Shown piece by piece: positions 8,753 through 20,951 of a DNA stretch of 32,112 nt. Numbering within the stretch: position 1 is the stretch's first letter; each line of letters starts with the position of its first letter. The notes beneath the pieces were generated by a model that did not search any database, had not been told where the DNA came from, and saw only the letters and a program-made list of their open reading frames with translations. Source of the stretch: Alphaproteobacteria bacterium (GTDB lineage: Bacteria; Pseudomonadota; Alphaproteobacteria; Micropepsales; Micropepsaceae); NCBI GenBank assembly GCA_947445215.1, contig CANFDA010000009.1, positions 1 to 32,112 of the forward strand. The letters are read 5' to 3'. The position numbers and the translations under genes are program-made.

Positions 8753-9658
8753 ATGTTTGACGCGGTGCTTATTGCAGGGCCGACCGCCAGCGGCAAGTCG
8801 GCCGCGGCGCTGGCGTTGGCCGAGCGTATCAATGGCGCGATCATTAACGTTGATTCCATGCAGGTCTATGCCGAAGCGCCGATCCTGACGGCGCAGCCCG
8901 GCGCGGTGGCGCAGGCGCGCGTACCGCATCTGCTCTACGGCCATGTTTCCGCGCGCGAGGCCTATTCGGTGGGACGCTGGGCCGAGGAAGCGCAGTCCGC
9001 CTTGGCGCACGTGCAAGCGATGGGCAGGGTGCCGGTCTTTGCCGGCGGCACCGGCATGTATTTCATGGCGCTGGAAGAAGGGCTGGCGACTATCCCGCCC
9101 ATCTCCGATGCGGTGCGCGACACCGCACGCGCGCTGTTGGTGCAAATTGGCGTGAAAGAATTGCATAAGCGGTTGGCGGCGCGCGATCCGGAGACGGCGG
9201 CGGGCCTTCGCCCCACCGATCCGCAGCGCACCTTGCGCGCCTGGGAAGTGTTGGAGGCCACTGGCCGTCCACTGGTGTCGTGGCAGAACGAACCCGCCGA
9301 ACCGGTCCTGCGCGGCATGACGCTCGCCCGCTTCCTGCTCGACCCGCCGCGCGAGCAACTGCGCGCCGCCATCGCCATCCGCTTCGAGACCATGGTGGAG
9401 CAGGGGCTGGACGAGGCGCGCGCGCTGGAAGGCCTCGATCCGGCGCTGCCCGCCGCCAAGCTGCTCGGGCTGCGCCCTCTGCAGGCCCTGGCGCGGGGTG
9501 AGATGGCGCGGACGGCGGCGATCGAGGAAGCGGTGACGGTGACGCGGCAGTTCGCCAAGCGCCAGATGACCTGGTTTCGGGGCCGGATGCCCCAGTATCG
9601 CCGGTTCGATCCTACGAAAAGCAATATTATTGCTGAATTTAATGAAATTACCGCATGA
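8753..9658 (+). CDS. miaA: tRNA dimethylallyltransferase
   Basis: MFDAVLIAGPTASGKSAAALALAERINGAIINVDSMQVYAEAPILTAQP and FAGGTGMYFMALEEGLA, TRQFAKRQMTWFRG. Real start inside the longer track ORF. Confidence 0.95.
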   Translation: MFDAVLIAGPTASGKSAAALALAERINGAIINVDSMQVYAEAPILTAQPGAVAQARVPHLLYGHVSAREAYSVGRWAEEAQSALAHVQAMGRVPVFAGGTGMYFMALEEGLATIPPISDAVRDTARALLVQIGVKELHKRLAARDPETAAGLRPTDPQRTLRAWEVLEATGRPLVSWQNEPAEPVLRGMTLARFLLDPPREQLRAAIAIRFETMVEQGLDEARALEGLDPALPAAKLLGLRPLQALARGEMARTAAIEEAVTVTRQFAKRQMTWFRGRMPQYRRFDPTKSNIIAEFNEITA

Positions 9659-9664
9659 AATGTC

Positions 9665-9693
9665 TTGACGTGGCCGCTTCTTGTCCATAAGTT
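9665..9693 (+). promoter_or_regulatory. Candidate sigma70 promoter for the ilvB leader transcript
   Basis: TTGACG (9665-9670), then CATAAG/TAAGTT in the -10 window (9686-9693). Confidence 0.5.
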
Positions 9694-9701
9694 GCGCTGC
9701 A

Positions 9702-9752
9702 ATGCAACATACTTTGGTACTCACACTTCTGCCGTGCCGACGGGCTCCCTGA
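9702..9752 (+). CDS. Putative ilv leader peptide MQHTLVLTLLPCRRAP*
   Basis: 16-codon ORF with run TTG GTA CTC ACA CTT CTG (Leu-Val-Leu-Thr-Leu-Leu), followed by alternative hairpins and a terminator before ilvB. Confidence 0.72.
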   Translation: MQHTLVLTLLPCRRAP

Positions 9753-9809
9753 GCCCAGGTAGGACATGGCGGGTATGAGAAAAGGGGCTGCAACGCCCCT
9801 TAATCTTTT
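9742..9809 (+). promoter_or_regulatory. Candidate transcription attenuator upstream of ilvB
   Basis: Hairpin GGGCTC/GAGCCC (9742-9747/9751-9756); terminator AAGGGGC/GCCCCTT (9782-9788/9795-9801) followed by AATCTTTT; AGCCC (9752-9756) can alternatively pair with GGGCT (9785-9789). Confidence 0.72.
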
Positions 9810-9843
9810 CGGGCATAAGCGGATTTCACGAGCGGGTTGGACG

Positions 9844-11637
9844 ATGAGCGAGACGAAGACCAAGACGGCGGACGCGGCGGCGCCAAATAGCAGCCAAGAA
9901 GTTATGACCGGGGCGCAGATGGTGATCCGCGCCCTAAAGGATCAGGGCGTCACGCATATCTTCGGCTATCCCGGCGGCGCCGTGCTGCCGATCTATGACG
10001 CGCTGTTCCAGGCCGAAGGCATCGAGCACATTCTGGTCCGCCATGAGCAGGGCGCGGCGCATGCGGCGGAAGGCTATGCCCGCTCCACCGGCAAGCCCGG
10101 CGTGCTGCTGGTTACCAGCGGCCCCGGCGCCACCAATGCCGTCACCGGCCTGACCGATGCGCTGATGGATTCCATCCCGATCGTGATGCTTTCGGGCCAG
10201 GTGCCGACGCATCTGATCGGCACCGACGCCTTCCAGGAATGCGACACGGTCGGCATCACCCGGCCCTGCACCAAGAACAACTGGCTGGTGAAGAACGTCA
10301 ATGATCTGTCGCGTACCATCCATGAAGCCTTCGAGATTGCGACCACGGGTCGTCCGGGTCCGGTAGTGGTCGACATCCCCAAGGACATCCAGTTCCAGAA
10401 CGGCGCATATGTCGGCCCCAAGGCGGTGCATCATCGCACCTACAAGCCCAAGATCGAGCCCGATGCCGATGTGATCGCCTGCGCGGTGGATATGATGGCG
10501 CAGGCCAAGCGCCCGGTTTTCTATACCGGCGGCGGCATCATCAATGCGGGCCCGCAGGCCTCAAAGCTGCTGCGCGAACTGGTGGACATCACCGGCTTTC
10601 CTGTCACCTCAACTTTGATGGGCCTGGGCGCGTTTCCGGCGTCGCGTCCCGAATGGTTGGGCATGCTAGGCATGCACGGCACCTGGGAAGCCAACCATGC
10701 CATGCATGATTGCGACCTGATGATCTGCCTGGGCGCGCGCTTCGACGACCGCGTGACGGGCCGCATCGCCGCCTTCTCGCCGGCGTCCAAGAAAATCCAT
10801 CTCGATATCGACCCGTCGCAGATCAACAAGGTGGTGCAGGTCGATCTCGGCATCGTCGCCGATGCCGGCAAGGCCATCGCGGCGATGATCGCGGCCTGGA
10901 AGGCGAAGAAGACTGCTAAGCCCGAGATCGGCGAATGGTGGGCGCAGATCCAGCAATGGCGCGGCCGCAAGAGCCTCGCCTACAAGGCGTCCGACACGCT
11001 GATCAAGCCGCAATACGCCATCGACCGCCTTTACGAGCTGACTAAGGATCGCAAGACCTTCGTCACCACCGAAGTCGGCCAGCACCAGATGTGGGCGGCG
11101 CAGCGCTATCATTTCGAAGAGCCGAACCGCTGGATGACATCGGGCGGCCTGGGCACCATGGGCTATGGCCTGCCCGCCGCCGTCGGCGTGCAGGTGGCAC
11201 ATCCCGACGCGCTGGTGATCGACATTGCGGGCGAAGCTTCGGTGCAGATGACGATGCAGGAAATGTCCACGGCGATGCAGTACGATCTGCCGATAAAGAT
11301 CTTCATCCTGAACAACGAATATATGGGCATGGTGCGCCAGTGGCAGGAATTGCTGCATGGCGGCCGCTATTCGCATTCCTATTCCGAAGCGCTGCCCGAT
11401 TTCGTCAAGATGGCGGAAGCCTTTGGCTGCCTGGGTCTGCGCGCAAGCAAGCCCGCAGACCTGGATGGCGCCATCCTGGAGATGATCAACACCAAGCGCC
11501 CGGTGCTGTTTGATTGCCGCGTCGATCCGAAGGAGAACATCTTCCCGATGATCCCGTCTGGCGCGGCGCACAATGAGATGATCCTGGGCGAACTGGACGA
11601 AGCGAGCGTTTCCGACGCCGGCAAGATGATGGTCTGA
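9844..11637 (+). CDS. ilvB: Acetolactate synthase large subunit
   Basis: [73 protein letters not shown]. Start placed at MSETK. Confidence 0.95.
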
Positions 11638-12164
11638 TGCTGTACGAGAAAGACACCAACACCACCACGCGCGAGAGCCACACGATCACGGTGCTGGTGG
11701 ACAATGAGGCGGGCGTGCTTGCCCGCGTCGTCGGCCTGTTTTCTGGCCGCGGCTACAACATCGAAAGCCTGACGGTGGCCGAAGTGAATCCGGCCGAACA
11801 CACCAGCCGCATCACCGTCGTCACCAGCGGCCCGCCGCATGTCATCGAGCAGATCGAGGCGCAATTGGCGCGCCTGATCCCGGTGCATTCGGTGACCAAC
11901 TGGACCTCGCAGAAGGGCGGCATCGAGCGCGAAATGGCGCTGATCAAGGTGGCGGGCACCGGCGACAAGCGCATGGAAGCGCTGCGCATGGCCGACGCCT
12001 TCCGTGCCCGCGCCGTGGACACCACCCATTCCAGCTTCGTCTTTGAGATCACCGGCGCGCCCGCCAAGATCGACAGCTTCGTGGAGCTGATGCGGCCGCT
12101 GGGTCTGGTGGATGTGTCGCGCACTGGTGTCGCCGCCATGAGCCGCGGCCCGGACGCCATGTAA
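11637..12164 (+). CDS. ilvN: Acetolactate synthase small subunit
   Basis: 175 aa; HTITVLVDNEAGVLARVVGLFSGRGYNIESLTVAEV ACT domain. TGATG overlap with the large subunit. Confidence 0.94.
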   Translation: MLYEKDTNTTTRESHTITVLVDNEAGVLARVVGLFSGRGYNIESLTVAEVNPAEHTSRITVVTSGPPHVIEQIEAQLARLIPVHSVTNWTSQKGGIEREMALIKVAGTGDKRMEALRMADAFRARAVDTTHSSFVFEITGAPAKIDSFVELMRPLGLVDVSRTGVAAMSRGPDAM

Positions 12165-12172
12165 CGCGGACG

Positions 12173-12787
12173 ATGGACGCCGCCGCCACCTTCCTGCCGC
12201 CCGCGACGATCATCGCGCTGATGTGGTTCACCCTGGTCAATTCGATCACGCCGGGCCCGAACAACATCATGCTCGCCACCTCGGGCGTGAATTTCGGTGT
12301 TCGGCGCACCGTGCCCCAGATGGCGGGCGTTTTCACCGGCCTGCTCGTCATCACCGTCGCCATCGGGCTGGGGCTGGGCGCGATCTTCAGCGAATACCCC
12401 GTCGTGCGCGATGTGCTGCGGGTGGCGGGTATCGGCTACATCCTGTTCCTCGCCTGGAAGATCGCCACCTCCGGCAGCCTGGGCGGCGGCGAGTTGCCCC
12501 ATCCCATGCGCTACAGCGCCTCGGTCCTGTTCCAGGGCGTGAATGTGAAGCTCTGGATGGCGGCGGTGGCAACGGTCTCGCTCTATGTCCGGCCTGGCCA
12601 CACGCTGGTCGATACCGCCACGGTGACGGCGGCCTATGCCCTGATCAACCTGCCCTGCATGCTGATCTGGACCGGCTTCGGAGCGGGGCTGCGCGATGTG
12701 CTCAAGGTTCCCGGCCGCATCCAGGTCTTCAACATCGTGATGGCCCTGGCGCTGGTCGCCTCCATCGTCCCGCTTTTGCGGGTATAG
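12173..12787 (+). CDS. LysE family translocator (amino-acid efflux)
   Basis: 204 aa; NSITPGPNNIMLATSGVNFGVRRTVPQMAGVFTGL motif and multiple hydrophobic segments. Confidence 0.87.
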   Translation: MDAAATFLPPATIIALMWFTLVNSITPGPNNIMLATSGVNFGVRRTVPQMAGVFTGLLVITVAIGLGLGAIFSEYPVVRDVLRVAGIGYILFLAWKIATSGSLGGGELPHPMRYSASVLFQGVNVKLWMAAVATVSLYVRPGHTLVDTATVTAAYALINLPCMLIWTGFGAGLRDVLKVPGRIQVFNIVMALALVASIVPLLRV

Positions 12788-12857: not shown

Positions 12858-13901
<1,044 letters not shown>

Positions 13902-19174: not shown

Positions 19175-19297
19175 ATGACCACGGGCATGCACATTGCGAA
19201 TAGGAAGGGTGGCTCTGCCGCTCGCATCCGCTCGCGCGCCCAGCGTCAGCCCCGTCCTTCCTCTTCGCGCGCGCTGCTTCTTCTTAGCTGCCCCTAG
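19175..19297 (+). CDS. Putative leuA leader peptide MTTGMHIANRKGGSAARIRSRAQRQPRPSSSRALLLLSCP*
   Basis: 40-codon ORF ending with CTG CTT CTT CTT (Leu x4); stop codon lies within CCCCTAG, the 5' arm of a downstream structure. Internal ATG at 19187 is an alternative start. Confidence 0.65.
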   Translation: MTTGMHIANRKGGSAARIRSRAQRQPRPSSSRALLLLSCP

Positions 19298-19343
19298 GCG
19301 CTGATAGGCGCGTGTGTTCGCACACGCGCCAGGTGTTTAGGGG
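19291..19343 (+). promoter_or_regulatory. Structured leuA 5' leader
   Basis: Perfect 10-bp hairpin GGCGCGTGTG-TTCG-CACACGCGCC (19307-19330) within outer pairing CCCCTA(19291-19296)/TAGGGG(19338-19343). Confidence 0.65.
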
Positions 19344-19397: not shown

Positions 19398-20951
19398 ATG
19401 ACCAACGACAGCAACAGGATCATCATTTTTGACACCACCTTGCGCGACGGCGAGCAATCGCCCGGCGCTGCGATGACGCATGAAGAGAAATTGCGCATCG
19501 CTGAACTGCTCGACGAAATGGGCGTGGATGTCATCGAGGCCGGCTTCCCCATTTCCTCGCCCGGCGATTTCAAGGCCGTGCAGGAGATCAGCAAGATCGT
19601 CAAGAACGCCAGCGTCTGCGGCCTCGCGCGCGCCGGCTTCAAGGATGTCGACCGCGCCGGCGAAGCGCTGAAGGGCGCGAAGCGTCCGCGCATCCACACC
19701 TTCATTTCCACCAGCCCCGTGCACATGAAGCACAAGTTGAATATGGGCGAAAATGCCGTGCTGGAAGCGATTGGCGCCTCCGTCACGCGGGCCCGCAACT
19801 ATACCGGCGAAGTGGAATGGTCGGCCGAAGACGCCACCCGCACCGTGCCGGAATTCCTGGTGCGCTGCGTCGATGTCGCCATCAATGCCGGCGCCACCGT
19901 CATCAACATCCCCGACACAGTGGGCTATTCCACGCCGCAGGAATATTTCGAGCTCTTCAAGATGCTGCGGGAGCGCGCGCCCAATTCCGACAAGGTGATC
20001 TTCTCCACCCATGTCCATAACGATCTGGGCCTGGCAGTGGCCAATTCTCTGGCCGGCGTGCTGGCGGGCGCCCGCCAGGTGGAATGCACCATCAACGGCA
20101 TCGGCGAGCGGGCGGGCAACGCCGCGCTGGAAGAGATCGTGATGGCGCTGAAGGTGCGCAAGGACATCATGCCCTTCACCACCGATATCAACACCACCAT
20201 GCTGACCCGCGCTTCCAAGCTGGTCTCGTCGATCACCGGCTTTCCGGTCCAGTACAACAAGGCCATCGTCGGCAAGAACGCCTTCGCGCATGAGAGCGGC
20301 ATTCACCAGGACGGCATGCTCAAAAATGTCGAGACCTACGAGATCATGCGGCCCGAGGATGTCGGCGTCCACGCCACCAGCCTGATGCTAGGCAAGCTGT
20401 CGGGCCGCCATGCCTTCAAGGACAAGCTGGAATCGATGAGCTATCGCCTGGATGCGGACGCCTTTGAAGACGCCTTCAAGCGCTTCAAGGACCTGGCCGA
20501 CAAGAAGAAGCACATCTTCGACGAGGATATCGCCGCCCTGGTGGACGACGAGATCATGCGCGGCCAGGACGCCATCCTCGTCAAGCATCTGCGGGTCGAA
20601 AGCGGCACCGGCATCGAGCCGGTCGCCGCCCTGACCCTGGTGGTCAATGGTGACGAGCGCTGCATCACCGCCGAAGGCGGCGGCCCGGTGGACGCCATCT
20701 TCAAGGCGATCCGCGGCCTCTATCCGCACACCGCTACGCTGCAGCTGTTCCAGATCAGCGCCGTTACCGAGGGCACCGACGCCCAGGCGACGGTCACGGT
20801 CCGGCTGGACGAGAATGGCCGCACCGTCACGGGCAAGGCGTCGGACACCGACACCATGGCCGCCGCCGCCTACGCCTATGTCAACGCGCTGAACAAGCTG
20901 GTCGTGAAGCGCGAAAAGCAGGAGCCGGAAGCGCTCTCTGTCGCAAGATGA
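19398..20951 (+). CDS. leuA: 2-isopropylmalate synthase
   Basis: 517 aa; [45 protein letters not shown] and C-terminal LeuA regulatory domain. Confidence 0.96.

Follow-up and report, generated by a model that had tools for sequence, protein, structure and literature searches.

The gap of 185 bp between miaA, which ends at 9658, and ilvB, which starts at 9844, in the 32,112-nucleotide stretch of DNA analysed here (the window) very probably holds a ribosome-mediated attenuator that controls transcription of the ilvBN(-ilvC) operon. The window belongs to the Rhizomicrobium group, its named relatives being Rhizomicrobium (Micropepsales). A sequence-only reading had proposed a leader-peptide attenuator of ilvBN in this gap, and had placed there a 16-aa ORF whose coordinates we reproduced. 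The proposal is borne out by the conservation of branched-chain amino acid (BCAA) codons, a rare codon choice, covariation of the stem, a conserved terminator and strong matches before ilvB. Comparison with related sequences establishes the upstream ORF (uORF), its control codons, the hairpin and the terminator, and links them to ilvB. Since the uORF before these genes of Val, Leu and Ile synthesis is rich in codons for the same amino acids and is followed by an RNA stop signal, a shortage of the three probably turns ilvBN on.

Organization of the ilvB upstream region

The features of the locus are collected in Table 1. The TTGAC-N17(18)-TANNNT pattern of the putative promoter is kept across the genus group in the comparison of upstream regions; a strict sigma-70 scan gave no call for the pair at 9665-9693. 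Downstream of ilvBN, ilvC possibly lies on the same transcript. A gene for a LysE/RhtB-type amino-acid exporter (12173-12787) is located between ilvN and ilvC; its top NCBIfam matches, LeuE among them, are below the cut-off.

Table 1. Features of the ilvBN leader and operon, in window coordinates.
Feature	Position	Strand	Details
Putative promoter	9665..9693	+	-35 TTGACG 9665-9670, 17-nt spacer, -10 TAAGTT 9688-9693
Leader peptide uORF, 16 aa, MQHTLVLTLLPCRRAP	9702..9752	+	ATG 9702-9704, TGA 9750-9752
Control codons Leu5 Val6 Leu7 Thr8 Leu9 Leu10	9714..9731	+	TTG GTA CTC ACA CTT CTG
Hairpin 1:2	9731..9770	+	Outer arms 9731-9738/9762-9770, inner arms 9742-9747/9751-9756; folding and covariation
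Candidate antiterminator	9743..9789	+	9743-9748 (GGCUCC) : 9784-9789 (GGGGCU); main helix at Leu9/Leu10, 0.65-0.66
Antiterminator of the sequence-only reading	9752..9789	+	AGCCC 9752-9756 : GGGCT 9785-9789; prevails only at Cys12 (folding)
Intrinsic terminator and U-rich tail	9782..9809	+	AAGGGGC 9782-9788 / GCCCCTT 9795-9801
ilvB, acetolactate synthase large subunit, regulated gene	9844..11637	+	NCBIfam PRK09107/TIGR00118 above cut-off
ilvN, acetolactate synthase small subunit	11637..12164	+	NCBIfam above cut-off
ilvC, ketol-acid reductoisomerase	12885..13901	+	NCBIfam above cut-off

The leader peptide and its control codons

As expected of an attenuator, the short uORF contains a run of codons for end-product amino acids. 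This run had been described as made mostly of codons other than the dominant Leu codon CTG, and codon usage in 20 genes of the window agrees: CTG accounts for 69.5% of Leu codons and CTT for 6.1%, GTA for 2.3% of Val codons and ACA for 3% of Thr codons. The leader ORF and its Leu/Val/Ile codons are kept in all 47 same-genus regions, 47 being the genomes whose DNA upstream of ilvB was taken. GTA is found in 45/45 parsed leaders of genus relatives; the parser searched for GTA, and no leader was dropped because it lacked it. Counted from the stop codon, the codon next to GTA encodes Leu, Val or Ile in 96% of the 45 parsed leaders and the one further on in 87%. The codons flanking GTA swap among Leu, Val and Ile in frame.

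The hairpin at the leader stop and the terminator

The GGGCTC/GAGCCC hairpin reported to overlap the leader stop is present (9742-9747 and 9751-9756), and constitutes the tip of a longer hairpin with the stop codon at this tip. Folding of the leader region gives z = -2.6 relative to dinucleotide shuffles. Hairpin 1:2 covaries beyond shuffles: none of 500 matched its stem covariation score, two-sided cells number 64 vs 29 in shuffled alignments, and a sliding control is maximal at zero, which is the proposed register. With the ribosome upstream, the genus leaders catch the terminator arm less than their shuffles do (0.29 vs 0.66, lower in 39/40). As capture is so far below the shuffled level, hairpin 1:2 has the conserved job of holding the terminator arm free. 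Covariation and masking together indicate a hairpin that is open to disturbance by a stalled ribosome.

An intrinsic terminator lies between the uORF and the first structural gene. The AAGGGGC/GCCCCTT stem and U-rich tail were correctly recognized from the sequence, although the U tract in the sequence that follows the stem, AATCTTTT, is interrupted. Within the genus the terminator hardly varies: it reads AAGGGGCG-loop-CGCCCCTT, with a loop that is mostly GNRA. In one genus leader (L037) its sequence differs (GAGGC/GCCTC) with pairing kept, and in sister genera (L191, L192, L195 and L196) the sequence is likewise altered and the pairing retained. The window itself departs from its relatives at 9784-9794, with GGGGCT for GGGGCG, which breaks the last pair of the nearly invariant stem. 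Among the aligned sequences only the window has U9789; a G-C pair is kept there in 38/39 rows.

Folding of the leader with a stalled ribosome

Ribosome positions were modelled by masking the RNA up to 12 nt past the first base of the A-site codon. Capture was scored as how often the terminator 5' arm is engaged in pairing ahead of the synthesis of its 3' arm. The E. coli trp attenuator, whose leader sequence was confirmed, served as method control and gave 0.62 at the Trp codons and 0.01 at the stop. In the window, capture is 0.05 at Leu5, 0.16 at Val6, 0.45 at Leu7, 0.52 at Thr8, 0.89 at Leu9, 0.85 at Leu10 and 0.44 at the stop, corresponding to a partial switch. The genus mean is 0.28 before the control codons and 0.61-0.66 on most of them; it is highest, 0.78-0.79, 4-5 codons before the stop and falls to 0.53, well short of zero, at the stop itself.

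With the ribosome stalled at Leu9/Leu10, the helix favoured for the window is the candidate 9743-9748:9784-9789, as judged from the model; 3-5% of shuffles catch the terminator arm equally well. From the capture values and this helix, Leu9-Leu10 rather than the TTG-GTA start of the run are predicted to be the effective codons here. The antiterminator proposed earlier fared less well. AGCCC (9752-9756) is indeed able to pair with both GGGCT copies (9742-9746 and 9785-9789), but the AGCCC:GGGCT helix is dominant (0.95) only with the A-site at Cys12, and masking 9714-9745, the folding check suggested for it, yields only 0.18 before region 4 is made. Nor is it conserved as such, its last pair resting on the window-specific U9789. 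The exact antiterminator of the sequence-only reading is thus weakly supported and does not hold as stated.

The terminator is the more stable structure in every ribosome state tested and wins at equilibrium once region 4 is present; the E. coli trp terminator is likewise more stable in the same calculation. The switch would therefore have to be kinetic.

Search for a conserved antiterminator

When terminator arms were swapped among 23 alphaproteobacterial lineages, no segment was significantly co-adapted to the terminator arm; for the inner 3' arm, which is region 2 of the sequence-only reading, p = 0.17 (23 leaders). With the ribosome on the control codons, arm capture in the genus does not exceed the shuffled level (0.64 vs 0.65). 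Several candidate pairings were rejected. Pairing of the outer 3' arm with region 3 is less complementary in own than in swapped pairs (p of own being as good = 0.9994) and no better than in shuffles; in the swap test of the 23 lineages this arm avoids its own terminator arm. The outer 5' arm offers the best mean complement (-9.2 kcal/mol), yet it would be hidden under the stalled ribosome and shows no co-adaptation (p = 0.29). Pairing between the outer 3' arm and region 4 was dropped since several leaders, read by eye, lack the complementary motif. The inner 3' arm with region 3, which reaches 0.77 vs 0.65 shuffled when region 1 is masked, is strong as an antiterminator in L192 and L173 and absent in others. 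The ilvB leader L192 (G127) is among the two strongest individual examples in favour of a 2:3 antiterminator: its inner 3' arm, GGCCCTC, is a perfect complement of the altered terminator arm GAGGGCC.

Probable leaderless start of the uORF

The leader ATG of the window sits 8 nt past the -10 hexamer, and the uORF is therefore probably leaderless or nearly so, with an RNA that would begin at the ATG or no more than a few bases from it. Within the genus, 23 genomes have the start 7-8 nt past the -10 hexamer, and the codon is ATG in 23/23, whereas 22 other genus genomes have it 22-45 nt downstream of the -10, with GTG or TTG in 13. An IlvB tree places the putatively leaderless rows in a single group that includes the window (support 95/88, one change, 98% of bootstrap trees). 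They thus represent a single evolutionary event, and the contrast in start codons does not amount to 23 independent cases. The apparent transition from led to leaderless initiation within a single genus offers a natural comparison of the effect of initiation mode on attenuation. The same short spacing from -10 to ATG is seen in a second genus (L188). Four Mesorhizobium ilvB leaders (L168, L171, L176 and L182) also look leaderless, since their uORF ATG lies ~8-9 nt after a putative -10.

Distribution of the leader

A uORF with a Leu/Val/Ile run, a hairpin and a terminator is present in 47/47 same-genus ilvB upstream regions. A covariance model built from 39 same-genus leaders matches 71/96 genomes of the order. 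When additional matches were opened, those at E ~1e-3 or better all precede ilvB; five weaker ones (L197-L201, E 0.0014 to 0.008) are not before ilvB and look like chance matches to terminators. The nine genus members that lack a match to the model also lack an ilvB match at the cut-off used. A uORF with an in-frame Leu/Val/Ile run, often CTC GTA, and a terminator also stand before ilvB in Hyphomonadaceae, Methylocystis, Mesorhizobium, Bradyrhizobium, Caulobacteraceae and others. Across alphaproteobacterial families the spacing from GTA to the stop is mostly 27-33 nt and that from stop to terminator mostly 28-37 nt, which indicates that many Alphaproteobacteria share one layout of the ilvB leader.

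In the Rfam scan suggested by the sequence-only reading, only a tRNA of the window was above the gathering cut-off; no leader family appeared up to E = 5, and the leader element matches no Rfam family. We found no earlier description of such a leader-peptide switch for the Rhizomicrobium/Micropepsales group. Leader-peptide control of ilvBN is extended here to Micropepsales, with a covariation-supported model that is absent from Rfam.

Proposed mechanism and alternative explanations

In the mechanism that we infer, with leaderless initiation, ribosome stalling and a candidate antiterminator, RNA would start at or within ~3 bases of the leader ATG and the 16-codon leader would be translated. With charged Leu and Val tRNA, the ribosome would run on as far as the stop codon, at the hairpin 1:2 tip, leaving the terminator arm free, and transcription would end before ilvB. 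When Leu is short (Val or Ile in relatives), the ribosome would stall on the rare codons that immediately precede hairpin 1:2, preventing its proper formation. Upstream RNA would then catch the G-rich terminator 5' arm before the 3' arm is made, resulting in read-through.

A constitutive, unregulated terminator, for instance one ending the miaA transcript, with an incidental uORF beside it, would account for the thermodynamic dominance of the terminator in all ribosome states tested and for a specific antiterminator that the shuffle and swap tests do not find conserved. We give this explanation very little credence, as a putative promoter separates miaA from the terminator, BCAA codons including the rare GTA are conserved in frame, the covarying hairpin carries the stop codon at its tip, and the layout is seen again ahead of ilvB in distant families whose sequences are unrelated. 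The in-frame exchange of Leu, Val and Ile codons at the control positions also argues against another BCAA-responsive route, in which a protein binds RNA or DNA around CTCGTACTTATT or in which the ribosome works via Rho or translation instead of an antiterminator helix. Moreover, an intrinsic terminator is always present, and Rho or translational control would not need one. The CTCGTA sequence is nevertheless conserved across families and the evidence for an antiterminator is weak. In addition, mutation of the leader codons of Streptomyces coelicolor ilvB had no effect (PMC1262725), a result that also counts against the attenuator reading of the window. On balance such a route appears improbable.

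Returning to attenuation, a more general picture may be considered, tentatively, for alphaproteobacterial ilvB leaders, although it is unlikely to hold as a whole. Their geometry of control codons, stop codon and terminator would be fixed and a dedicated antiterminator helix absent. A stalled ribosome would remove a protector hairpin, letting the G-rich terminator arm mispair with any upstream RNA, and one clade would have moved from a led to a leaderless uORF while retaining the layout. If the absence of a conserved antiterminator is real, how specific must such a helix be?

Comparison with known attenuators

Attenuation of Caulobacter ilvBN was reported by Tarleton (1994), as cited in PMC4117421. 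By the description given there, Caulobacter crescentus resembles the window in having an alphaproteobacterial ilvBN operon with Ile/Val codons in its leader and a paused ribosome that prevents a Rho-independent terminator; the likeness is one of description, and the caulobacterial leaders examined have a different terminator sequence. The E. coli trp attenuator shares with the window a uORF with control codons, a 1:2 hairpin around the leader stop and an intrinsic terminator. However, it switches cleanly in the same computation, whereas the switch of the window is partial and its antiterminator not conserved. The E. coli trp uORF is also not leaderless: in the sequence used, 26 nt separate its start codon from the 5' end.

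Another alphaproteobacterial attenuator, Sinorhizobium meliloti trpL, has an RNA that begins with the ATG of its uORF (PMC7298713), but it belongs to the Trp operon and its products rnTrpL and peTrpL have known trans functions. The Corynebacterium glutamicum ilvBNC leader likewise encodes an ilvB leader peptide with BCAA codons (IlvL, MTIIRLVVVTARRLP), with a single nucleotide between the start site and the leader's start codon as the distance, and with CUU and GUA as control codons (PMC11857589). It differs in being actinobacterial and in having an antiterminator that is backed by mutations, unlike that of the window. S. meliloti trpL and C. glutamicum ilvL are precedents for a leaderless leader uORF.

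A uORF upstream of leuA

A strongly conserved uORF of ~36 codons (19188-19298) precedes leuA (19398-20951) in the same window and ends in Leu-Leu-Leu-Leu-Ser-Cys-Pro-stop. No U-tract terminator is evident at this place in genus relatives, and Rfam gives no match for the element. A uORF ending in LLLL is found before leuA in 29/30 genus relatives, and genome G076 carries a related one. Most leuA uORFs of genus relatives have a conserved RPSLGSS..LLLLSCP ending with CCCCTA/TAGGGG complementarity downstream. In outline, the leuA uORF of the window is similar to the actinobacterial LEU element.
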